Below are positions 4,371 to 21,700 of a stretch of 21,700 bases of DNA, in pieces. The notes beneath the pieces were generated by a model. That model worked only from the letters and a program-made list of their open reading frames with translations, searched no databases and was not told where the DNA came from. This DNA comes from a virus, in IMG/VR virus record IMGVR_UViG_3300025280_000214, positions 1 to 21,700 of that record, one strand, 5' to 3'. The translations under genes were made by a program, and so were the position numbers. The stretch's first letter is position 1, and each line of letters starts with the position of its first letter.

Positions 4371-7300
4371 TCAAGGCGCTAGGATAGCCCCTGCCGTAAC
4401 CTTAGTTCTTGGTAGCGTTCTTTCTTCTGAAGTCTTTCGCCATGGCTCCAAGGTGGTGCCTTCACTGACAGCTATCACGAACTCCGTCATATTCGGTATC
4501 AGCTTATCGCCCCTACGATGTCGCTCAAGTATCGAAAATGCCTCTTGTGCCCGTCGACTATAGGGCTTTTTATTGGTGCTGTAGCGTTTGTCTAGAATCG
4601 CGAGCATGCTCTCAATAAGCGCTCGACCTTCTCTCTCTGTCTGATACTCTGTTCCTCGTAAGTTCTGTGCTGCGGCATCTCTCATATTGAAGTAGCTATC
4701 CATATATGTCTGTCGCAAACGGTCGATATCTTCGAGATTTATGATACCCGCTGATCTCGCTTCCGTAGCGATATTTTTCTTGGCATCACTACCTGCCGCT
4801 TTCCATTGGATGTAGAAGTTCTCTACCGTCTCTCGATCGAGACCGCTGGCTTTCGTTAGCAAGTCGATCCCTATATTGTCGAATTCATAGTAGGTATTCC
4901 CATCGACCAGGGGTTGCCTGCTGATGTACTTCTGCATCTCGAATAGCGTTTCTGTAAGTGGCGGCGAATCCTTTACCATCGAGTCTTCTACACGCCAGAG
5001 ATATCTCGTTAGCCGTTCTCTAGCTATCGATGGGTATCGTTCCTCCATCATCTTGTACCAGTGTTCGGTCTTCTTGTCCTTCAGATTCCAATCAATCGTT
5101 CCGTCGAGACCACTTACTATCGACGGCAGGATTTTGCCTTCTTTATCTTTCGTCTCTTCATAGAAGGTGTCGAAATAGAAATACTGGGCTGCATCGTAGA
5201 TATCTACGTCCCATTCACTGACGTTTCTCGATAGTTCACCCTCACCGAACAAATCCTCAACTACTTTGTAATACGTACCTCCCGGTGCAGTAAGGATACG
5301 CCTGGCTTTGGCGAAGTTGCCATTCACCGTTCTCATATACTTTGAATACGCTTTGAGATCTCCAGGCCATAGGTTTACATCCTCAGTGACTTGTTCCCCG
5401 TCCTCATTGATATAAGTAACGGTAATCAACCCCTTTCGCCATCCTGGGTCAGGGTTGTTATAAGCATCTTCAATCGCTCGCACCGCATCTAGCTGTCGCC
5501 TATCTATTGCCTCTCTCTCTAGCTTGTACTGATCATAGGCACTTGCACTGCGCGCTCTGCGTTCGTTGATCCTCGACTCGAAGTCAGCCATCTCTTCGGG
5601 AGTCATCACGTCTTTGAATGCTCCGCTGGAGATCATCTCTTTGATCTTCTTCTTGTGGTCATTCGCTATGTCTTCCCACTTAGGAACCTGATCGCCGAGG
5701 CGTCCCCGGAACGAGATGCTGACACTCCAGTCCTCTCCGATATCGACGGCACGTTTCCACCAGGCTTCGCCTGCCTGCGCCCAAAGCTGCTCCATCTCTT
5801 CCTCGGTCATCGCGCCCGTATCAACGCCGAAGACCTGTAACTTCTGCTCATGGTTCATGTTCTCGAGGATATCGTTGTATGCCTCGTTCTTCGCTTCGTT
5901 GATAGTCTCGTATGCGCTCTTAACACCCATAAGCTGTCCGGCAGTCTGGCCTACTCCGGCGGCTATCGTGCCGATGCCCTTCAGGGGGTCGCTCGTTAGC
6001 TCATTAAAACCACCGAACACTCTGCTTACAATCGATTGCTGGCCTGGCTGACTGAAGGCAAACTCGGACCAGGCGAAAGGTGTTAGGTGTTCAGCGAATT
6101 GGTCAAGAAACCATGCAGCTTGTTCCCCTAGAGAAGAATCTTTCGGCGGTGCCGTGCTTCTGCCGATAACATCCGATCCGAAAGCCATATCCAGACCGTA
6201 TCCAGTTCCTGGCGCACTGACAGCACTGCGTAGAGCCGAGAGGCTTGACCAACCCTCTTGACCCACATTCGCAAGTATCAAGAGAGGAAGCGTCGTAAGT
6301 CTCAGCATGCCATCCCATGGCCCCAAAAGGCTGACATCTATCGGTCCGGCATGGACACGCAAGAAGTTGGGATTGAAGTACCACTGTTTCGTGGCTTGAT
6401 TCCTAACGAACGGGTTGATATCGGTCTCTTCCCCCAACAGTTCATTGATCATGAATGTCAGATAGGTAGCATTGCCGAATGCCCTGCTCAGATGTTGAGC
6501 CGCAACCCTTTGCTGCGTAGTCTTCGTAACCCCTGGCATCAATCCTTGTGCTGCAAGAGAGAGCATCTTCATGCGTGCATGGAGAAAACGAGGGGCGAAC
6601 AACAGCATCTGACCAGGCGTGCCGAGAAACCCACGTCTCCCCACACCTGACATGAAGTTTGCAACCGTAGCTATCTCGGTAGCAGTACCATCTTGGATTA
6701 GTTGCTGCGCGGTCTTGCCCGTACGCATCATCTCGATAGCCATATCGGTATCGAAGCGCTCATATCGAAATACGTTGCCGTAGTGCGTAAATACTCTGTC
6801 GAACTTTTTGATTCCGGGTAGAGAGCGAAGTCCCGCAGCGCTAGTGTAATTAAGGTCTGGTGCATTCTTCAGTATCGCGAGGCCAGCATTCGCAGCATCT
6901 GTCGGAGTTAGCGTGCCCATCTGGAGGGCCATCTGCTCCTGCCGCCAGAAGTACTCACCGACAACTTGGTCTCCATTGTTACCAAAAGCATCCCAGCTTG
7001 CTCTGAGCGCAGTGAAGGCGTCCCCTCGCCTATCGATCTTTATCTCATTCGCACCAGTACGCAGATTTATCACTCCGGCACGATCAAGGGTATCCCCTAG
7101 AACCCCTGTCCATCCCTGTATGCCGAAAGCGCTGAAGTCACCTGTGGCACCGACCATCCTCATGTACGAGTTGACCCTAGCCAAAAAGATAGCATCACTG
7201 GCTTTTTCACGAACGAGGTTCGAGGACAATATGGACTGAGCTAAGACCTTGGGGAAATACAATCCTTCGAGGCCCGTGCCGGTAGCTTCAGCGACACCGG

Positions 7301-10196
7301 AAATGCTTTTGTAGTCTTTGAGTACGGCTTCCTTCGCGTCGTCAACAGCCTTTTTATAAGCTGTCATTGCATTCGATATTCGAAGCACATCTCTAGTCGC
7401 GATAGCCCACTCGCCCTTCGCTGCTTTTACTGTTTTTACCCACTCATTGGCCTGCTGCTGAAGAGTATCCAGGTGCTCGAAGATGGTCTTATTCATCCCG
7501 ACATCGTTGTTACCGTAGATAGGACGTAAACGAAGCCAATAATTCATACTCTGGAAAAGTTTTTCGGCTTTGTTTATCTTCTGTCCCGTACCTTTTGGAT
7601 TGATATCGCGCTGACGCTTTACCGCATACGCGAGAGCATCTTCAAGCTCCTGGCCCTGTTTCAGGAGATGCTGATACCCGTCGCTATCCTTTAGCAGATC
7701 ATCAACTGTTCCATTAGGGATGTCGTATGCATCAGCTACACGAGAAACGAATTGGCCTGACTTGACCGCCATGATGTGCCTGGCGACATAGGTGGCGTAG
7801 TCGTCCATCGCCATGGATGGATCGATATACCATTGCCCAGCCCATTGGCCTTCTGCTTGAGAGGTAAACTGCCGCCTCTTGCTATGGGTGGTAGGAAGGA
7901 ACTGGCCTGTCTCATCTATTTTGAATGCGAGTTCCGGCTGAGGATCTTCCATTGGGAAATGACTGTCAGTTACCTTTCCCCCACCCATGGCATTCCTCGG
8001 GTAATAGGTTCCTCCAGAGCTTATAGACCGACCAGTGAATGCGTGGGTTACACCAGATCCAGCAGCACTAAGGGCAGTCTCGAGTTCACGGGCGATGTTC
8101 GCCATTTCCTCGAATACGTCGTAGGCATTCATCCAGTCGCCTTCTATCGGATTCCCCTGCCCATCGATGCGCTGTACAACGTTCCTGACAGACCGGAGTG
8201 GAGACCTATAGAGGCCAAGGTGTTCGATGATATCGCCTATGGATGGATCGAGATTATCGGCAACCCACTCTGTCTGATTGAAGACCACGTTGGTGTTTGG
8301 GTCTCTGGTGGTTAGGATATTGCCAGCAGCATCGTAACGGTCGACCTGATGTATAGGACCGGCAGCTTTGCCTGTGTTATCGAGGTAGTAGGTAGGAAGT
8401 CCCGTCATGGACTCTACATTTATCCGTGTATGCCCACGCAAGGTGTACCCAGATTCACCGATACCTTCCTCGAATAATCTATTTTGAACTGCAAAATGCC
8501 TACTTCCGACAGTGGTGGCCTCTATTACGTCCGGTGGAACTACGGCAGATGGTATGTCAGGCAGCACGACGCTATGATTCCCACGATTCTGAGCGTCCGT
8601 TGCACTACCTCTAACAAGTCCGGTAAAGCTGTTTCCACTAGCAAGAGTTAATTCCGCTTGTTCATCGAATTGCTCGGCTGCACGTCCCGTGTAGCCCCCG
8701 ACATTCCAACGCAACATGCCTGCTTTCTCGAGAGCGCCGATGTAGAAGTAGGTCTGCGACCTGGCTTTGGCAATCAATGCTTCCTGTCGATTCAGCCATT
8801 GATCCTGCACCGTCGTGATAGTTTCCCCTACGCGTCTGCCAAACCTAGACGATCTACTCGCTTTTTCTACTGCCTCTGGATCGACTCTGGCTTTGACACC
8901 GAAGCGAGCTTCCTTCATCCCTCTCAAGAACTCAGTGAGATTATGTCTGATCTGAACAACGCTATCGTGGATCATTTCCATATTGGATAGATCTTTATTG
9001 AGTAGCCTCTGTCCCTCTGGAGAGGCATCGACAGGCCTAAAGGAATCATAGATAGCGTTGCCTGTTGGTGGGGTAGGATCACTACCCTTCGGGTGTGTAC
9101 CCCAGAACCTTCTTCTCCACCACGGCGTGCCGTCTGCACCAGCACTGTCTAGGGCTTCGTTACGCCATAGGTCAGCTCCGCGCTGTCCGAAATGAAGTTG
9201 AGTATTCTCATTGAGCTTGCCTTCTCTGGCAGCTTTCTCGACGACATTCGTTGCCCTGCGGTTCACATCCGAACCCAGCGCACCACGGTTCAGTGCATCC
9301 CGGCGGAAATAGTTCACCGCTACTTTCAGCCCGCCTTCAGTTGTCGGATACAAGCTGGGATCAATAAGCATCCTTCCTGTTTTCCATGTCCCCGTAGTCG
9401 CCTTCCAAGGAAGATAAACACTCAAGCCTAGAGCCCTGCCTACTGTGGCTCCGACGGCGATATCGGTATATCGAGGCATATGGAATATCTGATTGACGCT
9501 ATGCCCAGCAACAGATACTGCCTTGCCAGCAGCACGGCCAGCGACCTCTCGTTTAGCACCTCTGCCTGCTTGGCTCTGTGCGATCTTCACGCTGGCCCTA
9601 GTAGCCGCTTGAAGGGCTTTCCTGCCCACCGCTGCCGATCCTCCAGTGAGTGCTACCTCTGCTGCTATCGTGGGAATATCTGCGCCAACTTCGATCAGTG
9701 CACGATTCGAAAATTCCCATGGGCCGAGTTTGCGGCGCTCGGTAAGTCCCGGCATAGCAGCATCTTGGATGTCAGCTTTCATCATGTACTGCTCTTCGAG
9801 AGAAGGCTCACGTCCTTCGGTGCGACGCCAATCCTCTTTGGTTTGCTCCAAGAGCAATCCCATCTGTGTCTCATCTGATGGATCGAGACGCTCTCCCCAC
9901 CCCTCCGGTATCAGACCTTTACTGATATCGGATGTGAAGTCGAGGACATCGCTACCTATCTCTCTCCCGAGATGAGAGGCGAGCCCTCCTAATCCTCGCT
10001 CGTCGTAGGTCTCACGCATCTCACCGAGACGCTGGATATCCTCGGTTACTCCATGGCGTGTATAGTCAAGGGCGGTAAGTGCCGCTCGTGCAACAGGCGC
10101 GAGTGGCCCTAGCTGATCCATGGAAAACCCACGACCGCCTGCTCGGGTTTCGATGCGCTTCCGCCTGTCCTCTATTTCTTGGTCTGTGAGAGCCAT
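4371..10196 (-). CDS. Giant internal/polyvalent virion protein, 1941 aa
   Basis: One intact frame of 1941 codons, by far the largest gene here. The N-terminus is charged and helical. Residues about 168-260 hold Ala/Gly-rich, partly hydrophobic stretches (EVALTGGSAAVGRKALQAAT) as seen in membrane-interacting ejection proteins. The middle is a long mixed region without recognisable catalytic motifs. Residues about 1185-1420 resemble the region of large polyvalent phage proteins where a 'FAPRF' segment is followed by 'NPNFLRVHAGPIDVSLLGPW' and hydrophobic stretches. About 1490-1590 is Lys/Glu/Arg-rich and helical. No MuF, lytic transglycosylase, protease or kinase signature was found by eye. Its ATG overlaps the stop of the 119-residue gene (TAATG), so the two are translationally coupled. 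I infer a protein packaged in the head and injected with DNA. Its position between portal and scaffold, rather than downstream of tail genes, is unusual. Confidence 0.78.
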   Translation of the reverse strand: MALTDQEIEDRRKRIETRAGGRGFSMDQLGPLAPVARAALTALDYTRHGVTEDIQRLGEMRETYDERGLGGLASHLGREIGSDVLDFTSDISKGLIPEGWGERLDPSDETQMGLLLEQTKEDWRRTEGREPSLEEQYMMKADIQDAAMPGLTERRKLGPWEFSNRALIEVGADIPTIAAEVALTGGSAAVGRKALQAATRASVKIAQSQAGRGAKREVAGRAAGKAVSVAGHSVNQIFHMPRYTDIAVGATVGRALGLSVYLPWKATTGTWKTGRMLIDPSLYPTTEGGLKVAVNYFRRDALNRGALGSDVNRRATNVVEKAAREGKLNENTQLHFGQRGADLWRNEALDSAGADGTPWWRRRFWGTHPKGSDPTPPTGNAIYDSFRPVDASPEGQRLLNKDLSNMEMIHDSVVQIRHNLTEFLRGMKEARFGVKARVDPEAVEKASRSSRFGRRVGETITTVQDQWLNRQEALIAKARSQTYFYIGALEKAGMLRWNVGGYTGRAAEQFDEQAELTLASGNSFTGLVRGSATDAQNRGNHSVVLPDIPSAVVPPDVIEATTVGSRHFAVQNRLFEEGIGESGYTLRGHTRINVESMTGLPTYYLDNTGKAAGPIHQVDRYDAAGNILTTRDPNTNVVFNQTEWVADNLDPSIGDIIEHLGLYRSPLRSVRNVVQRIDGQGNPIEGDWMNAYDVFEEMANIARELETALSAAGSGVTHAFTGRSISSGGTYYPRNAMGGGKVTDSHFPMEDPQPELAFKIDETGQFLPTTHSKRRQFTSQAEGQWAGQWYIDPSMAMDDYATYVARHIMAVKSGQFVSRVADAYDIPNGTVDDLLKDSDGYQHLLKQGQELEDALAYAVKRQRDINPKGTGQKINKAEKLFQSMNYWLRLRPIYGNNDVGMNKTIFEHLDTLQQQANEWVKTVKAAKGEWAIATRDVLRISNAMTAYKKAVDDAKEAVLKDYKSISGVAEATGTGLEGLYFPKVLAQSILSSNLVREKASDAIFLARVNSYMRMVGATGDFSAFGIQGWTGVLGDTLDRAGVINLRTGANEIKIDRRGDAFTALRASWDAFGNNGDQVVGEYFWRQEQMALQMGTLTPTDAANAGLAILKNAPDLNYTSAAGLRSLPGIKKFDRVFTHYGNVFRYERFDTDMAIEMMRTGKTAQQLIQDGTATEIATVANFMSGVGRRGFLGTPGQMLLFAPRFLHARMKMLSLAAQGLMPGVTKTTQQRVAAQHLSRAFGNATYLTFMINELLGEETDINPFVRNQATKQWYFNPNFLRVHAGPIDVSLLGPWDGMLRLTTLPLLILANVGQEGWSSLSALRSAVSAPGTGYGLDMAFGSDVIGRSTAPPKDSSLGEQAAWFLDQFAEHLTPFAWSEFAFSQPGQQSIVSRVFGGFNELTSDPLKGIGTIAAGVGQTAGQLMGVKSAYETINEAKNEAYNDILENMNHEQKLQVFGVDTGAMTEEEMEQLWAQAGEAWWKRAVDIGEDWSVSISFRGRLGDQVPKWEDIANDHKKKIKEMISSGAFKDVMTPEEMADFESRINERRARSASAYDQYKLEREAIDRRQLDAVRAIEDAYNNPDPGWRKGLITVTYINEDGEQVTEDVNLWPGDLKAYSKYMRTVNGNFAKARRILTAPGGTYYKVVEDLFGEGELSRNVSEWDVDIYDAAQYFYFDTFYEETKDKEGKILPSIVSGLDGTIDWNLKDKKTEHWYKMMEERYPSIARERLTRYLWRVEDSMVKDSPPLTETLFEMQKYISRQPLVDGNTYYEFDNIGIDLLTKASGLDRETVENFYIQWKAAGSDAKKNIATEARSAGIINLEDIDRLRQTYMDSYFNMRDAAAQNLRGTEYQTEREGRALIESMLAILDKRYSTNKKPYSRRAQEAFSILERHRRGDKLIPNMTEFVIAVSEGTTLEPWRKTSEERTLPRTKVTAGAILAP

Positions 10197-10567: not shown

Positions 10568-11320
10568 CTACCCGCCGAATGCCAACCGCCCCGCTGCCTG
10601 AGCCGGTTTCCCTTCGCCAGCCGCCACCGCTGGCTTGCTCGCATCGAGCCACCACTGAAGGAAACTTCCCGCTCCTGCTGTTGGATTCTGCCCTATGTAT
10701 GCGGTGAAGAGTTCATCGACAAGGCTAGAGATAGCTTGGCCCGTGGCTCCAGCATACTGGCGCTCACCGCCCATCTCATCGGGGCGTTGCATCGCCATAA
10801 GCTTGATGAGGTTTTGGACGTTCGTGCCAGCCTCTGCTCCGGTGCCATAGGTCTCTCGGTATTGAGCAAGCTCCGCCGGTGTCAGATTTTGTATCGCTGC
10901 GTAATTGGGTGTCCCCAATCCATAGTATGCGGACCCATAGCTAGGAATGGCAGAGTAATCAAAGAATTGATCAGCCGTCATCCCTGCCAGGCCAGCGGCG
11001 GCATATGCCCTATTACGGATGTCGGCTCCTGTTAATGGAGTAACTCCTAGGTTCGTTCCAGTAGGGACTGCGGGATAATTAAATCCAGGGTTTATACCTC
11101 CACCAGCGCCATAGGCACCGAGCCAGTTGGCAAATTGACCACCATATTCAGGTTGCCGCAACTGCCATCTCGCGGTTAGTGGATCTTGTTGCCCCCAGAA
11201 AGCTTGCCGTGCTGGGCCTGGGGCCATACCGCTTGCGAATTGATAGAACTGTTGCCCAGGTTGTTGCATCCCTGTGACGCTAGCACCATACGAGGCCAGG
11301 ATATCTTCGAGCGTTGCCAT
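10568..11320 (-). CDS. Gly/Ala/Gln-rich probable virion protein, 250 aa
   Basis: The 250-residue product is rich in Ala, Gly, Gln, Tyr and Pro and has low charge. The N-terminus (MATLEDILASYGASVTGMQQ) leads into a Gln/Phe/Gly region, then a segment with many Tyr residues and a helical part about residues 165-220, ending in an Ala/Gly tail. No cysteine, signal peptide or catalytic motif. The ATG is preceded by AAGGAG about 6 bases upstream, and the gene lies 10 bases after the 666-residue gene. Such composition is common in internal virion and ejection-type proteins. I assign it to the head interior or neck on that basis only. Confidence 0.65.
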   Translation of the reverse strand: MATLEDILASYGASVTGMQQPGQQFYQFASGMAPGPARQAFWGQQDPLTARWQLRQPEYGGQFANWLGAYGAGGGINPGFNYPAVPTGTNLGVTPLTGADIRNRAYAAAGLAGMTADQFFDYSAIPSYGSAYYGLGTPNYAAIQNLTPAELAQYRETYGTGAEAGTNVQNLIKLMAMQRPDEMGGERQYAGATGQAISSLVDELFTAYIGQNPTAGAGSFLQWWLDASKPAVAAGEGKPAQAAGRLAFGG

Positions 11321-11330
11321 AGTTCTCTCC

Positions 11331-13331
11331 TTATTTCACATATGCTCGGAGGTATGATTCGACTGATCTGCCAGAGCGTACCCATGAAGAAAGCCCGCTT
11401 GTCATCAATTTCTGATTCTCTATGATGTCGTATCGGCCTGCTCCTTTTGGCGAGATGTAGGTCCCAATCAACGCACCGGTACGGTTTATAGCTTTACTAT
11501 CGGTTGGGTCTATAAATGCGGCTCGTTGCCACGCCAGATCAGGCCCCGCTTCACTCACAATTTGTTGGTGATCATCGTACGATAGACCTTCGAGTGCTGA
11601 CATCGCATCTACCATCTCACGTACGCTCTCACGAGTCTCTTCGCTAGTCAGCACAGATATATCACCGAGGAAGTCGCCTACATACTTGCCATAGTCGGTC
11701 ATTCGGTCTTGGTCACGCTCGGCATCCATCTCCGTCTCGCCTCCCCATCCGTACTCTGGGATTACTCCGTAATCGGTAACCCCGCTTACCGATGGAGGTC
11801 GCGTGAGGTAGTAATGCACATCAGCATCAGCACTGAGGTGTGGAAGTACCTGTTGTGCATTGTGTGAAGAGGAGCCTTCTAGCTGGTTGAACTGTCTTTC
11901 AAATATGATCGAGTGCGGTGAGATATCTGCCCCTGGACTTCTAAATACATCTGTTAAGGGATCGAGCGGCGTAGGGGTAGGTGTCATTGTCTCCGGTCCG
12001 TGAGGAAGGGTTGTCACGGTCAATGGTTGCGTAGGCTTATCCGTCGTAGGGGTAAGGGCAGTAGAGACAGGATCAGTAGGATTCCATCCGGGGAAAACAA
12101 CATCGAGTGCATTGGCGACATTGCCTAATTGCTGCTCATTCATAGCGTCACTAACTGCATTCTTATCATCTTCATCGAGCGTACCCCAGTACGTCATCGC
12201 ACTGGCAAGGTCTTCGGCAGGCCGGTCTCCACGCGGTAGACTCTGGTCAAGACCCCCTCCTCCAAAAGGTAAGTATCCACTCTTCATACCACCAGTATCG
12301 CCGCCTCCGCTAGACACAGTGGTCGGTGAGTAGTCTATTGCGAGATTTGGCTGAATGCCCGGTCCGCCATCAGCAATCGTAGTATTGGTTCTTTCTATCT
12401 GTCCAAGTATGTTGTCTATCGAGTCTATGACGAAGCTTGATGTGCCCTGATCTCGCAACTGATTGACGAATATCCGCACATCCTCTGGCAATGCCCATGG
12501 ATTCGGGTCTGTAAGCGAGGCAGTGAGATCCGAGAGAAACTCGGTGATAGATTCGGTATTACGAAAATCGCTATGGAGATCGGCCACGGCCTGGTTCGCT
12601 GCTGTCGTTTGGACCACTTGCTCCATATGACTTGCGGATGCTCCTGATATTCCGGATGACATTCCGAAAATGTCACGACCTAGGTTCTCGAAGGTATCCG
12701 TAACGAAATCAGCGGCAGTATTGAGCCAGTCGAATGCGCCTCCACGATCTTCTTCAGGCGCGCTTACTCTATCAAGAGGTGAGGCATAAGCAATCTCGGG
12801 TGAGAGTGGATTAAGTTGGTTTAGCCAATCGCCTGCCGTATCCCACATCGAGTTGAGACTATCGATCCAGCCGTTATCGACTGCCGCGTCATCGATGCTA
12901 TTGAGCAGGTCATCTATCCCGTCACCGGCATAATCCAGTACCATATCAGTACTGTTGAAAGCTGCATCGAAGTCGTACGGGTCTGCGCCACCGAGGGCAT
13001 CTATGCCAGGGTAGAGACCGATGAGGCTATCGACCTCGTTCTGCTCGAGACTCGGACCCCACGGAGTCAGCATCCCCATCATGGGAGCGCCCGTTCGGGC
13101 TTCTACTCCCTTCTGGTAGACGGCCTTCTCCACCGCGAACGGATCATTGTTCTCTATCTCAAAGGGATCGAGAGTAGCTGTATCACCGTACCCAAATATT
13201 TGATTGATATGGTTATCCATAGCAGCGTCAAACGTCAGGTCGTCAAACCACATATCGTAGATGACAGCTTCCGGTGCGCCCGTGTAGACAGACTCGAATA
13301 GGTCAGGGACATGGTCGGTGTTATGTGGCAT
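11331..13331 (-). CDS. Large acidic virion-type protein, 666 aa
   Basis: A 666-residue, strongly acidic protein (many Asp/Thr/Ser), starting MPHNTDHVPDLFESVYTGAP directly after the portal stop (TAGATG) with GGGAGG inside the portal gene as ribosome binding site. The first half has repeated acidic helical stretches (about residues 120-215, many Asp-Asp/Ile-Asp pairs). About residues 425-470 is a Thr/Pro-rich linker (LTPTTDKPTQPLTVTT, then TPTPTPLDPL). The C-terminal 150 residues look globular again. No catalytic or membrane motif is seen. The immediate position after portal suggests a head-interior or portal-associated protein, produced at levels linked to portal by translational coupling. Family not recognised. 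Confidence 0.68.
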   Translation of the reverse strand: MPHNTDHVPDLFESVYTGAPEAVIYDMWFDDLTFDAAMDNHINQIFGYGDTATLDPFEIENNDPFAVEKAVYQKGVEARTGAPMMGMLTPWGPSLEQNEVDSLIGLYPGIDALGGADPYDFDAAFNSTDMVLDYAGDGIDDLLNSIDDAAVDNGWIDSLNSMWDTAGDWLNQLNPLSPEIAYASPLDRVSAPEEDRGGAFDWLNTAADFVTDTFENLGRDIFGMSSGISGASASHMEQVVQTTAANQAVADLHSDFRNTESITEFLSDLTASLTDPNPWALPEDVRIFVNQLRDQGTSSFVIDSIDNILGQIERTNTTIADGGPGIQPNLAIDYSPTTVSSGGGDTGGMKSGYLPFGGGGLDQSLPRGDRPAEDLASAMTYWGTLDEDDKNAVSDAMNEQQLGNVANALDVVFPGWNPTDPVSTALTPTTDKPTQPLTVTTLPHGPETMTPTPTPLDPLTDVFRSPGADISPHSIIFERQFNQLEGSSSHNAQQVLPHLSADADVHYYLTRPPSVSGVTDYGVIPEYGWGGETEMDAERDQDRMTDYGKYVGDFLGDISVLTSEETRESVREMVDAMSALEGLSYDDHQQIVSEAGPDLAWQRAAFIDPTDSKAINRTGALIGTYISPKGAGRYDIIENQKLMTSGLSSWVRSGRSVESYLRAYVK

Positions 13332-15188
13332 CTACGGACCTCCCTGAGCCCCTGGACGTGGCGTGCCTGGTGGCACGTTTGGACCCGGTTGCGGTACGGG
13401 CATAGGCGGAGGAACGCCCATCATGGCGTTCGGCATCACCTCTGGTGCCATGGTTGGAGGGCCACCGGGAGGCGGACCCATGGGCGGACCTCCGCCAGGC
13501 ATAGGTGGGCCTTCACCGGGCATAGGTGGCCCCATAGGAGGCTGTGGCGGCGCTGGGGGTGCTGCTCGTTGCTCTGCCATCTGACGCTTCTGCATCAGCA
13601 CGCTCATCAATTCGCCGAGGTAGAACTTCGCGAGGTCCGATCGCCCCTGGCGCTCTGCCGCACGCAGGAGGGTCCATAGCGCCGCCTCGGGCAGCATGCG
13701 CTCGGCCATCTGTTCCTTGATGGCGTCGTCCATCTGATCCGCGTCCTGTAATGCGAGGATGCGGTCTCGGATCGCGCGGTCGGAGAGTAGTGGGGTGGGG
13801 CCTTCGCGGGCGATCTGGGCCATGGAGTAGCGGGTCATGTCGTCCTGCGGTAGCTGTCCGACGAGGGTGACCACCGGTTGGCTCGTGCCCTTGATCATCT
13901 CGGTGGTTATCTCTTCGGTGAAGTAGACACGGTTCCTGTCCATGCCCGATATCTCCATGGACTGGAACGCTCCCTCAGAATACTGGTCTGCTATCAGGTT
14001 GAAGATCATCTGATAGGCCTTCTCGACACCCCGCAGATACTTCGATACGACGGTCTCCACGCCCTGTCTGAGCGTATTGATCGCGAACCCGGAGAGTTGG
14101 AAGGGAAGCTCGCCGTACACTGAGTAGGGAAGGGAGCCGCGCTGCATCTCGCCGGAGACGAGTGTCATGAAGGCACCTGTCTCCTTCGCCATCTCCAGCA
14201 ACCCGAGCGGTTCCACGTTCTCGTTCTGGGCAAGGGCGATCTCTGAGCCCTCCAGGTACGGGTCTTCGTCGAGAGACTTCGTCCCGTCGCGGGAGCGGAC
14301 GATGAGGCCCTGCCTGCGCGAGCGGGCGGTCAACTCCAAGAGCGTGCTCATCATCAGGTTGTGCTTCGGGTAGAGGTCTCTCGTGGCCCGGAACACGGAC
14401 TCGCCAACGTCGGCTATCGTGTCTCTCATAGAAGACTGGGTAAGACTCACGATATAGGGGTTCGCCCCGATGGGGCCGATGAAGGCGGGCACCTGATCAG
14501 CGCCGTGGCGCTGTTGCTTCTTCACCACCCGTAGCAACGGATTCCTATCGGAACCGTTGTGGATGATGATCGTGTTCATCTCCTTGTCATAGAAGTCGTA
14601 GACATCTATGCCATCGGCAGAGTAGGGCGCATCCCAGTCGATCTTGATGTTGTACTGGGAGAATATCTGGTCTTTCGTCTTCGGAACCTTGTAGCAGGCC
14701 CATTCCAGACCTTCCGGCCCCGTTCCCCAATAGGTATGAAGTGGGTCCCACGGGGTGATGTCCACGTAGGTCGAGCCGTTATCTCTCTTCGCCAGCAGTG
14801 CCCTGCCTGCGTACCAGCCACGCACCGTGACGTACCAGGCAAGTTGGTCTCGTATCTCCGGTAGCATCATGCGGGAGAGACGCTCGTTCGCGGCCCGTTC
14901 CACGCCTATCAGGAATCGCTCCTTCATGTCGTTGCGTTCCCTTAGCTCCGGGTCTGCTCCGTCATGGGGGATACGCACCGTCATATCGGCCCCTGCTATC
15001 CAGCCGATCACCTTCTCCGCATAGGTCTGCGGCTCGTTCGACGTGTAGGACTGATAGCCTTCCCCGGCGTTATACGGCTCCAGGCGATAGAGGGCGTGAT
15101 CGTCCTGCATGCGCTGGCGCAGCGGTTCGGTCGCGTCATAGTGCCCATCTACGAGGGCTACGATGTCTTCAGGCCGTCTTCTCGCCAC
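13332..15188 (-). CDS. Portal protein
   Basis: The 618-residue protein follows the large terminase and has the expected size and layout of a phage portal, the dodecameric ring through which DNA enters and leaves the head. An N-terminal helical region with Tyr/Trp/Asn-rich motifs (residues about 35-65) is followed by a wing/clip region with WDP near 'DITPWDPLHTYWG' (about 143-155). A long helical stem/crown region and a C-terminal helix then run to residue about 543. The start is GTG, with AAGGTGGG about 8 bases upstream, adjoining the terminase stop. The last 75 residues are an extreme Pro/Gly/Met tail of repeated PPMPG-like units, probably disordered. This tail is extra to the fold. The portal call is from pattern and synteny. 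Confidence 0.87.
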   Translation of the reverse strand: MARRRPEDIVALVDGHYDATEPLRQRMQDDHALYRLEPYNAGEGYQSYTSNEPQTYAEKVIGWIAGADMTVRIPHDGADPELRERNDMKERFLIGVERAANERLSRMMLPEIRDQLAWYVTVRGWYAGRALLAKRDNGSTYVDITPWDPLHTYWGTGPEGLEWACYKVPKTKDQIFSQYNIKIDWDAPYSADGIDVYDFYDKEMNTIIIHNGSDRNPLLRVVKKQQRHGADQVPAFIGPIGANPYIVSLTQSSMRDTIADVGESVFRATRDLYPKHNLMMSTLLELTARSRRQGLIVRSRDGTKSLDEDPYLEGSEIALAQNENVEPLGLLEMAKETGAFMTLVSGEMQRGSLPYSVYGELPFQLSGFAINTLRQGVETVVSKYLRGVEKAYQMIFNLIADQYSEGAFQSMEISGMDRNRVYFTEEITTEMIKGTSQPVVTLVGQLPQDDMTRYSMAQIAREGPTPLLSDRAIRDRILALQDADQMDDAIKEQMAERMLPEAALWTLLRAAERQGRSDLAKFYLGELMSVLMQKRQMAEQRAAPPAPPQPPMGPPMPGEGPPMPGGGPPMGPPPGGPPTMAPEVMPNAMMGVPPPMPVPQPGPNVPPGTPRPGAQGGP

Positions 15189-18116: not shown

Positions 18117-18938
18117 ATGGCGAAACTAGGCGACAAATTGGCGGTCAAAATGAGCGATAAAAACATCGCAGAAACGGAGCGAAAAATGGTCACAAAACAA
18201 CGCAAACAGCGAGTCAATTCCGCAGTGATTTGGGAAGGTCTCAGCCCGTACGATAACGGACCGATTATGGCGGTCATAACTAACATGGATGGGAGCAGTC
18301 AAAACGATAAAACTGGACGCATGGCTCAGGTGTCAATTATCCGCTCCGATATGCATCCATGGGAAGCGATCAAAACCGATGCGGATGTATCCATCTGCGG
18401 AGGCTGTCCGCTGCGCTATACATGGAACGAAACCACGCGCAAGTTCGAGCGAATCTGCTACGTAAATGTAGTCTACGGAATAGCGGCAAAATGGCGCAAA
18501 GAATCCTCGACCGGATACGTCCGAATGACACCTGAAGAAGCGGGCGATTTATGTGCTGCAAACGGTGTCGGTATTCGCGGCGGTGACTACGGTGACCCGG
18601 GCATGATTCCATACGAGATTTGGCATGCATTATTCTCCCGCGCTCCGTTCCATACCGCGTACACTCACCAATGGATGGAACCGTTCTTTGATGTGCGTCT
18701 ATTCCAGTACGTAATGGCTAGCGTGGACTCCACAAATACCGTCGAGAAATTGCAAGCAATCCACGGCCCGGACGTACGCTACTATCGTCTCGCGGATGAC
18801 TACGAAAACGTCGCAAGCAACGAGGCAATTTGCCCATCAAAGAAGAACGGCGAACGAGTGCGGACATGCGCCGAATGCAAGCTCTGTGCTGGCGCGTCAC
18901 GGCCTGCCAAATCAATCGTGATAATTGAAGACGAGTAG
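18117..18938 (+). CDS. Eight-cysteine conserved phage protein (DUF7227-like)
   Basis: A 273-residue protein starting MAKLGDKLAVKMSDKNIAET, with AGGAG about 8 bases before the ATG. Landmarks are SAVIWEGLSPYDNGPIMAV (35-53), the motif SICGGCP (Cys94, Cys97), CYVNV (Cys114-), a Gly/Asp-rich segment GGDYGDPGMIPYEIW (155-169), YTHQW (182-186) and a C-terminal CP-x11-C-x2-C-x2-C (Cys239, 251, 254, 257). This layout matches my memory of a widespread phage/plasmid family catalogued as DUF7227, whose function is not established. The cysteines suggest one or two metal sites, zinc or iron-sulphur. GC content (about 47% in a sampled block) is lower than in the genes to its right, hinting at separate origin. 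It opens the plus-strand operon. Confidence 0.8.
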   Translation: MAKLGDKLAVKMSDKNIAETERKMVTKQRKQRVNSAVIWEGLSPYDNGPIMAVITNMDGSSQNDKTGRMAQVSIIRSDMHPWEAIKTDADVSICGGCPLRYTWNETTRKFERICYVNVVYGIAAKWRKESSTGYVRMTPEEAGDLCAANGVGIRGGDYGDPGMIPYEIWHALFSRAPFHTAYTHQWMEPFFDVRLFQYVMASVDSTNTVEKLQAIHGPDVRYYRLADDYENVASNEAICPSKKNGERVRTCAECKLCAGASRPAKSIVIIEDE

Positions 18939-19945: not shown

Positions 19946-20004
19946 TCGAAACGCCAGCCCGGAAATCTCAAGGCCGGGCGGCGGGCATACATGGGAGGTT
20001 GAGC

Positions 20005-21042
20005 ATGAGACGCTCAGAGTTGGAGACGGTAGGGATCGCTACGCTTCGGGAGTGGGGCCGTGAGTACGGCGTCACGTCGACGATGAAGGCCGACATCATC
20101 GCCGCCCTGGCGGACGATTACCGCGAGGCGATGGACAGGGTGGTGCCAGGAGACACATCGGAGCAGGCGATCTGGCCGTTGGTGCCGGATGCGGCATGCG
20201 AAATCAACGGCGGATACATCGATCCGCCCTGGCTCGCAGAGTTGGAGGCCGCGAGCAGCTTTGGGCATGTCGAGTTGCTGGGCCCGGCAGGCTCCGGCAA
20301 GAGCCTGGGTGTCCACAAGCTGGCGGCTACGCAACGCCGCAGGCTGGCCGTGGTCACGGCAGACGGTGGCCTGCGTAAGCGTGACCTCATCGGCGGGGCA
20401 GGGCTCCGCAACGGGTCGACGGTGTTTCAGGCCAGCGAGTTCGCAGCCGCTGCCCGCAGCGGAGCGTGGGCCCTCATCGACGAGGTCAACATGGCGGAGC
20501 CGGACGCCATCGCCGTCCTGCTAGGGATGCTCGACCACCCCGGCAGCGAGGGCTCCACGTTCACGGTTAACGGGCAGGTGGTGCCCGTACACCCGGACTT
20601 CCGATGCTTTGTGACCCGCAACCCCGGCTACGCCGGTAGCAAGCGGTTGAACGAGGCGTTCGCCGATAGGTTCTGGAGCATAGAGGTGCCGCCCCTACTG
20701 GGCGACAGCCTCGATGCCATGCTGACATCGCACGGTGTAGACGATGCCAACGTACGGCGCATCGCCGTGATGGTGGTCGAGGCGCTGTACCGCAACTGGG
20801 AATCGAACCGAATCGTGTACCAGATAAGCCCACGCCGGGCCCTTCAGGCAGCGGAGATGTACTCCCGCATCGGCAACTCCACGGCGATGTTCTGGACCCT
20901 GCTCACCAAGAGCATCACCACCAAGATCGATACCAAGCATGACCGGGAGGCCGTCGCCCGGATCATCGAGCAGGCTCAGGAAGCATGGCGGCTACTCGAC
21001 AGGCAGACCAACAACGACACTAGGGAGGCACGTAATGTCTAA
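20005..21042 (+). CDS. AAA+ ATPase, MoxR/CobS type
   Basis: A 345-residue ATPase. The N-terminal 45 residues (VGIATLREWGREYGVTSTMK) resemble a SAP/helical lead domain, as in CobS-like proteins. The AAA+ core has Walker A GPAGSGKS (93-100), Walker B WALIDE (155-160) followed by VNMAEPDA, sensor 1 TRNP (204-207), a probable arginine finger near ADRF (Arg222) and sensor 2 in SPRRAL (275-280). ATG 20005 is preceded by GGGAGG six bases upstream; an earlier in-frame TTG is too close to that site. It overlaps the VWA gene by 8 bases. In this family the ATPase remodels a target with a VWA partner acting as adaptor; cobaltochelatase CobS and MoxR are the models. The target here is unknown. GC-rich (about 70%) unlike the structural genes. 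Confidence 0.85.
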   Translation: MRRSELETVGIATLREWGREYGVTSTMKADIIAALADDYREAMDRVVPGDTSEQAIWPLVPDAACEINGGYIDPPWLAELEAASSFGHVELLGPAGSGKSLGVHKLAATQRRRLAVVTADGGLRKRDLIGGAGLRNGSTVFQASEFAAAARSGAWALIDEVNMAEPDAIAVLLGMLDHPGSEGSTFTVNGQVVPVHPDFRCFVTRNPGYAGSKRLNEAFADRFWSIEVPPLLGDSLDAMLTSHGVDDANVRRIAVMVVEALYRNWESNRIVYQISPRRALQAAEMYSRIGNSTAMFWTLLTKSITTKIDTKHDREAVARIIEQAQEAWRLLDRQTNNDTREARNV

Positions 21043-21700
21043 GGCAGACCAGGGTTACAAGGCAGCCAAGCGGAGCACGGGCGGCGGATACGGGCGGGCC
21101 ATCAAGCGCTCCACGTACCTGGCTAAGGCGGGCAAGGATGAACTCGCAGACATCTACCTGCGGACGCAGCAACGGGGCATCATCGATCTGCTTGGCCTCG
21201 ACCACGGCAGCGAGCAGGCCATGATCATCCGGCAGGGGCTGCTCGAGGAATACAACGAGTCCACGATGACCAAGGCGGAGATCGATGCCGCCACGCAGGC
21301 GGAGAGCCGGGGCCTTCAGGCCACCGCCAGCAACGCCAGGAAGACCAACCTCCTCGAGGCTGCGGCGGTGCTGATCGACGCCCTCCAATCCCGTACCCGC
21401 AGCCGGGACAGGCTAGACCTCGAGCAGGGCGACCTCATCGATGACCCCGCCATGCTCATGGTCGACGGCTCCGGCTGGGGCGAGGAGACCTACACCGGCA
21501 CGCAGTACCGGAAGCACATCAACATCGCCCTCGATAACTCAGGCTCCACCCACATGCCGGAGACGGGATACTGCTCCATCGACATGCAACAAGTGGCCTG
21601 GAGCCTGATGGAGATCCTCTACGCTGCGGCGGACCAGTTCCCCGGCATTAGCTGGGATGCGTTCACGTTCAACCGGGTAACGAACCAGCATACCGGGTAC
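21035..21700 (+). CDS. VWA-domain protein, CobT-like (partial)
   Basis: An open frame of 222 codons starting at ATG 21035 (GGGAGG 6 bases upstream) runs off the right edge. The first 150 residues are helical, basic at first (MSKADQGYKAAKRSTGGGYG) then charged, a substrate- or partner-binding region. At 163-171 INIALDNSGS carries the D-x-S-x-S metal-ion-dependent adhesion site of a von Willebrand factor A domain, followed by helical and strand segments expected of that fold (SLMEILYAAADQFPGISWDA). The start lies inside the ATPase gene, so the two are translationally coupled and probably form one complex, like CobS-CobT or MoxR-VWA pairs. The remaining VWA motifs (Thr and Asp of the metal site) must lie beyond the window. 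Confidence 0.82.
   Translation, partial: MSKADQGYKAAKRSTGGGYGRAIKRSTYLAKAGKDELADIYLRTQQRGIIDLLGLDHGSEQAMIIRQGLLEEYNESTMTKAEIDAATQAESRGLQATASNARKTNLLEAAAVLIDALQSRTRSRDRLDLEQGDLIDDPAMLMVDGSGWGEETYTGTQYRKHINIALDNSGSTHMPETGYCSIDMQQVAWSLMEILYAAADQFPGISWDAFTFNRVTNQHTGY

Follow-up and report, generated by a model that had tools for sequence, protein, structure and literature searches.

Introduction

In Rea1 (Midasin, Mdn1), CbbQ-CbbO and NorQ-NorD, the MIDAS of a VWA domain binds the client at an acidic residue, and the client is pulled or strained by the ATPase ring. Viral cobS and cobT belong to the core gene set of marine cyanophages and are frequently classed as auxiliary metabolic genes for vitamin B12. 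Viral CobST have also been suggested as auxiliary cobaltochelatase subunits in many tailed viruses (PMC8651126). Viral AAA+/VWA pairs have already been published for ATV (p618/p892; PMC4124505), haloviruses (PMC7911831, PMC8651126), jumbo phages (PMC7824862), and a Bacillus phage (PMC2147016), and a cluster containing MoxR and VWA genes is common to pCAR1, R478, Rts1, SXT, and R391 (PMC2642839). A fusion with a metallopeptidase has been described in jumbo phages (PMC7824862), and the peptidase annotation of cyanophage cobT was deemed a mistake by one paper. In the open literature, we found no paper that ties MoxR-VWA pairs to recombination modules in general, the subscription papers being mostly outside the scope of this survey. 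Viral MoxR-VWA pairs are known; what is new here is a compact form that has neither the HExxH domain nor the acidic linker.

Gene layout of the virus record

The window, i.e., the whole stretch of DNA analyzed in this study, is an entire 21.7-kb virus record of a marine phage. Its capsid and terminase genes are located on the minus strand, and the structural region also contains an ORF of 1941 aa (4371-10196, minus strand). A run of plus-strand genes, divergent from the capsid and terminase genes, starts at 18117, continues until the record ends, and holds the AAA+/VWA pair. A promoter scan gave no excess over shuffled sequences. The window and contig 3300025267_003120 (L007) were regarded as one phage because only 4 of 9145 common bases differed; three of these mismatches, at 18347, 18350, and 18371, are clustered in a 25-base stretch of the Cys-rich gene (18117-18938).

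ATPase gene and protein

The first gene of the pair (20005-21042, plus strand) encodes an AAA+ ATPase of 345 aa of the MoxR type (CbbQ/NorQ-like), as identified from the ORF, a Pfam AAA_5 match (E=4e-19), and a structure model. The ORF runs from an ATG at 20005 to a TAA ending at 21042 and is preceded by a ribosome-binding-like site (GGGAGG); a TTG in the same frame at 19999 is a less probable start. Residues 1-41 (20005-20127) form a small N-terminal helical segment, with helices at residues 3-7, 11-21, and 25-40 in the model. The Rho_N profile gave E values of 0.02-0.04 in three of the five relatives whose N-termini were tested, below the cut-off, which is a hint from sequence that these helices may be weakly Rho_N-like in some relatives.

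The catalytic motifs were identified on the plus strand. Walker A (GPAGSGKS, residues 93-100; 20281-20304) is invariant in 13 aligned members except for S/T at residue 100, and the same 13 members share without change Walker B (WALIDE, residues 155-160, with D159-E160; 20467-20484), sensor 1 (TRNP, residues 204-207, with N206; 20614-20625), R222 in DRFW (20668-20670), and the sensor-2 motif SPRR (residues 275-278; 20827-20838). R222 is a candidate arginine finger by analogy with other AAA+ proteins. The protein shows the AAA_5-type core that characterizes the MoxR AAA+ family, including both Walker motifs, the two sensors, and a candidate arginine finger.

The structure model of the ATPase (mean pLDDT 70) was nearest to CbbQ (Z 17.6) and NorQ (Z 16.4), followed by Mdn1 (12.8), dynein, and other AAA+ proteins. 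The structural neighbors listed did not include CobS, which is uninformative, as CobS structures exist and match by sequence. In the sequence search against solved structures, the best single-domain scores were those of CbbQ (62.7 bits) and NorQ (43 bits), with single Midasin modules reaching up to 39.5 bits and CobS 25 bits. Midasin was rejected as the best match, since its very low whole-chain E-value is a sum over repeated AAA modules, each of which scores below CbbQ.

VWA gene and protein

The second gene (21035-21700, plus strand) is an open ORF encoding the first 222 of 366 residues of a VWA protein, the rest lying beyond the end of the record. It starts at an ATG at 21035 with its own AGGGAGG and overlaps the ATPase gene by 8 nt ATGTCTAA, in agreement with the overlap given in the preliminary description. 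The complete protein of 366 aa was found in contig 3300025267_003120 (8480-9580) and in contig 3300035199_000383 (L008; 4686-5786). MIDAS motif 1, D167-N-S-G-S171, is located at 21533-21547 of the window (plus strand), and D167, S169, and S171 are invariant in 12 members. The remaining MIDAS residues, T252 (9233-9235 of the former contig) and D282 (9323-9325), lie outside the window and are likewise invariant in the 12 aligned members. All five MIDAS residues are therefore present in the completed protein, whose model has a VWA fold. The preliminary description had read Walker A/B, sensor 1, and the DxSxS metal site in the pair, and these were all confirmed; it had also named a VWA domain lacking the remaining MIDAS residues as evidence against its proposal, an objection that falls because T252 and D282 are present and invariant. 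The third partner that it had proposed to look for beyond the VWA gene (CobN, a phosphatase, or a protease) was not recognized.

The model of the VWA protein is of low confidence (mean pLDDT 57). Its nearest structure was Rea1-MIDAS (Z 13.9, rmsd 3.6, 186 aligned residues), and the VWA domain of NorD (Z 11.7) was level with generic VWA domains. Sequence searches gave no significant family match for the VWA protein, no relatives were found in annotated phages and plasmids, and a profile comparison between this VWA family and the HExxH-VWA proteins was not significant. The VWA proteins of the family are 364-386 aa in length, and the N-terminal HExxH domain was absent in the seven members tested.

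Conservation of the pair

Scans of viral contigs identified further pairs in a dozen further IMG/VR records, with the same gene order and about 45-60% identity. The VWA protein was present in all 12 related records, some of which are near-copies of one another, and the ATPase gene was paired with a VWA gene at every family locus having both ends. Adjacency and order were kept in the family, with spacing between the two genes from -8 to +108 nt; because the spacing varies, the 8-nt overlap itself is not conserved. GTDB genomes were scanned twice, using the alignments of the two proteins, and gave no cellular relatives, by a method based on short conserved peptides that would miss distant ones. 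A cellular or prophage origin, considered as a candidate, found no relative in these same scans, with the same limit on distant relatives.

Between the phage of the window and L008, the ATPase gene differed by 10 synonymous codon changes and 1 amino-acid-changing one, compared with 38 and 32 in the VWA gene. This contrast may reflect either a recombination breakpoint near the junction of the two genes or faster change in a client-binding protein.

Relationship to cobaltochelatase

The preliminary description had named the pair CobS/CobT-like, and the ATPase matches phrog_249, a family of phage CobS-type proteins, at E=1e-31. We scored the ATPase against the CobS equivalog TIGR01650, and it obtained 16.7 bits against a cut-off of 558.55, with Sinorhizobium CobS as a positive control reaching 650.6 bits. 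CobS_N was found neither in the Pfam scan of the ATPase (to E=1) nor in the isolated N-termini of five relatives (to E=10), and CobT_C gave no match in the 12 family records to E=10. The CobT_C profile does match in L004-L006, other records in which an ATPase of 451 aa is followed by a protein of 658 aa with HExxH and VWA domains (L004 5846-9174; L005 670-4001); this pair is related to those of Gordonia phage GMA6 and Brevibacterium phage Cantare. The acidic linker before the VWA domain is also absent, as D/E makes up no more than 32% of any 60-residue stretch in the family, versus 48% in Sinorhizobium CobT. Neither CobN nor a large-chain ribonucleotide reductase was found in the 12 related records, which are possibly partial, and a CobN of the host could serve.

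A tree of 32 ATPases, which includes one cellular CobS and has long deep branches, recovered the family as a single clade (100/100). When two long rows were omitted, a clade (99/98) comprising CobS, CobS of T4-like phages, and the ATPases of phage-plasmids and conjugative plasmids excluded the family. The AU test gave p 0.038 against a grouping of the family with CobS, and groupings with NorQ (p 0.20) or MoxR (p 0.11) were not rejected. The phylogeny against CobS, MoxR, and phage homologs that the preliminary description had proposed thus disfavors a CobS affiliation.

Because the ATPase falls far below the CobS cut-off, CobS_N and CobT_C are lacking, CobN was not found in the possibly partial records, and the family lies outside the CobS-holding clade, the pair is not a CobS/CobT cobaltochelatase. 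An auxiliary role in which the pair, together with a host CobN, increases the availability of cobalamin, a function put forward for the CobST of many tailed viruses (PMC8651126), is highly improbable: the phrog_249 match would fit it, and the equivalog score, the lack of CobS_N, CobT_C, and acidic linker, the tree with the AU test, and the lack of CobN and large-chain ribonucleotide reductase genes in the possibly partial records speak against it. Of the earlier naming, a chaperone-type AAA+/VWA pair is upheld by sequence, models, and conserved pairing, and membership in CobS/CobT is not supported by equivalog score, domains, and tree.

Genes around the pair in the family

A Cys-rich gene (18117-18938, plus strand; phrog_2554, E=6e-50) is a conserved neighbor upstream of the pair and is, at most, a putative part of the machine. 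A phrog_2554 or GP88-type Cys-rich gene was located upstream of the ATPase gene in the relatives examined (L008 1437-2294; L009, L010, L024-L027, and L029). The phrog_2554 set has seven invariant Cys residues (CxxC, C, and C with CxxCxxC), a pattern that suggests a metal site, and no solved relative of this protein was found. We considered phrog_2554 and GP88 as one superfamily and rejected this, the profile comparison being weak. A role of the pair in maturing a metalloprotein in the manner of NorQ-NorD, e.g., the Cys-rich protein encoded upstream, would suit both these neighbors and the position of NorQ among the nearest structures. However, the Cys-rich genes belong to two families with a weak profile comparison, the metal cluster is putative, and several genes may separate them from the pair, so we consider this role very unlikely. 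The metal-linked role that had been suggested earlier from the Cys-rich proteins is at most conceivable: such genes lie upstream in the relatives examined, with no link to the pair observed.

Downstream of the pair, a phrog_298 exonuclease gene was found at 2.5-4.2 kb in all seven family records in which over 2.2 kb of sequence follows the VWA gene. In L007, L008, and L024, the next gene codes for an ATPase that is AAA_25- or primase/helicase-like. A DUF932 gene follows the pair in L007 and L008, with a DUF932-like fragment in L009; phmmer detected none in the remaining loci. A protein of 212 aa encoded before the exonuclease is SSB-like by position, and this candidate was rejected, as neither the protein nor its counterparts gave a convincing family match.

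Two other genes were observed in L008, a relative of 35 kb. One is a full TatC gene (13912-14820, minus strand; Pfam E=1e-46, above the NCBIfam tatC cut-off), for which no close relative was found in another viral contig. The other is a phosphoadenosine-phosphosulfate-reductase-like gene in the early region (10887-11762, plus strand).

Pairs in other phages and plasmids

The neighborhoods of pairs in other mobile elements, a set that was collected by hand and carries no computed null, contained various genes involved in replication and recombination. In T4-like phages, the pair lies between gp46/47 and the genes for the clamp and clamp loader. Genes near the pair include those for SSB, helicase, and primase in Gordonia phage GMA6, and for DnaE, ThyX, DnaB, and primase in Brevibacterium phage Cantare. 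In a crAss-like phage, the ATPase gene occurs alone, next to those for Sak4, polymerase, helicase, and primase, and phage-plasmids (L061 and L063) carry VWA, ATPase, and DnaE genes together. Among plasmids, the gene content is ATPase, ssb, bet, exo, DUF3150, and VWA in an IncC conjugative plasmid and ssb, recT, exo, ATPase, DUF3150, and VWA in another conjugative plasmid; two further plasmids have a YqaJ-type gene immediately before the ATPase gene. The remaining cases are less specific: a Hef nuclease gene lies about 4-5 kb from the pair in HCTV-1, methylase and nucleotide-metabolism genes lie near it in Gordonia phages Forza and GMA2, and the surroundings were uninformative or held nucleotide metabolism only in three phages. 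A relative of the plasmid ATPase was present in 4441 plasmid records. In plasmids L059, L060, and L062, MoxR-type ATPase and VWA genes adjoin ssb/bet/exo, with DUF3150 in the conjugative ones.

An N-terminal HExxH was present in 14 of 15 other phage or plasmid VWA partners having DxSxS, several of them also with an acidic stretch. Since a bacterial CobT also lacks HExxH, the "CobT" proteins of mobile elements represent an architecture of their own.

These locations bear on two further roles that had been suggested for the pair. A virion-assembly chaperone, aiding the folding or maturation of a structural protein in the manner of ATV p618/p892 or of jumbo phages, has precedents in p618, a virion component that binds p892 strongly (PMC4124505), and in the role suggested for jumbo phages (PMC7824862). 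However, the pair is on the strand opposite to the capsid and terminase genes and leads into replication and recombination genes, annotations of the phage stretches examined show no virion structural gene on the strand of the pair, and comparable genes are kept by plasmids that build no virion. Such a target is thus disfavored by gene location, and we regard it as quite unlikely.

The early-type, divergent position away from the virion genes would also suit takeover of the host or counter-defense, through dismantling or inactivation of a host complex (respiratory, stress, or defense) early in infection. Host conflict systems include MoxR-vWA modules (PMC7159879), and the cellular pair RavA-ViaA is reported to act on respiratory complexes (PMC10585395). 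Nevertheless, there was no match to a defense family, no third component such as VMAP was recognized among the neighbors scanned, and this reading gives no reason for conjugative plasmids to have comparable genes in their recombination clusters. PADLOC, whose library may lack MoxR-vWA conflict systems, gave no match for the pair or DUF932, and the counter-defense target proposed at the outset thus gained no positive evidence. Overall, a host target appears unlikely.

Proposed function

The pair very probably consists of an ATPase of the MoxR type and a VWA cofactor. The most likely arrangement is a MoxR-type motor whose cofactor binds the client, because the ATPase model is CbbQ/NorQ-like and the VWA model is Rea1-MIDAS-like. 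The client may be the early DNA replication/recombination complex of the phage, of phage or host origin, an assignment that we make tentatively. A replication/recombination client, which was not among the targets named in the preliminary description, is favored because of the gene location and because conjugative plasmids, although they build no virion, have comparable genes in their recombination clusters. Taken together, our best explanation, which we hold at slightly less than an even chance, is a compact two-gene remodeling machine of the MoxR type acting on an early replication/recombination complex.

In this machine, the ATPase would form a ring on which the VWA protein would dock. By comparison with Rea1, CbbQ-CbbO, and NorQ-NorD, the MIDAS metal of the VWA protein could coordinate an acidic residue of the client, and ATP-driven motion of the ring might then strain or dismantle the client complex, perhaps a replication/recombination assembly. 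Because the family is a separate deep clade, its function may differ from that of other mobile-element pairs.

A broader idea, possible but rather doubtful at present, is that MoxR-VWA pairs serve phages, phage-plasmids, and conjugative plasmids alike as a general replication/recombination accessory, remodeling complexes of SSB, annealing proteins, exonuclease, or the replisome. If so, many "cobaltochelatase CobS/CobT" annotations would be misnamed, and the compact family would be the minimal, deep-branching form of a general role that has so far gone unrecognized. The viral family described here is built on the same two-gene logic, yet it fails the CobS/CobT tests. Taken with the repeated occurrence of such pairs beside recombination and replication genes, it provides a testable alternative to the vitamin-B12 role.

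Comparison with known systems

CbbQ-CbbO and NorQ-NorD resemble the pair in that they supply the nearest structures and sequences to the ATPase and in the adjacency of the ATPase gene to a gene for a VWA protein. They differ in that Rubisco or nitric-oxide-reductase genes are absent here, and a NorD-type protein has 640 aa versus 366 aa for the VWA protein of this study, with no match at the sequence level. Midasin/Rea1 is similar in its MIDAS domain, the nearest structure to the VWA model, and in the scores of its single ATPase modules, but combines AAA modules and MIDAS in one giant chain, whereas here one AAA module and a VWA domain are encoded as separate small proteins.

Among viral systems, the "CobS/CobT" pairs of cyanophages, haloviruses, and a Microcystis phage share adjoining AAA+ and VWA genes in tailed viruses, but their ATPases belong to another clade and their VWA proteins are 581-740 aa with HExxH, compared with 366 aa without it. 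The MoxR-vWA pairs of jumbo phages (PMC7824862) likewise combine a MoxR-type ATPase and a VWA cofactor in phages, with a metallopeptidase domain that is absent here. ATV p618/p892 is also a viral MoxR ATPase with a VWA partner, and, as in the present pair, no peptidase domain has been reported; however, it belongs to the virion of an archaeal spindle virus, with 618 and 892 aa versus 345 and 366 aa here, and the pair of this study is encoded away from the virion genes. The MoxR-DUF3150-VWA genes of conjugative plasmids and SXT/R391-type elements are alike in having a MoxR-type ATPase and a VWA gene near exonuclease and recombination genes, and differ in the ATPase clade, the extra DUF3150 gene, and the HExxH of the VWA protein. 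The pair described here is the smallest AAA+/VWA pair among those compared and would be useful for structural work.
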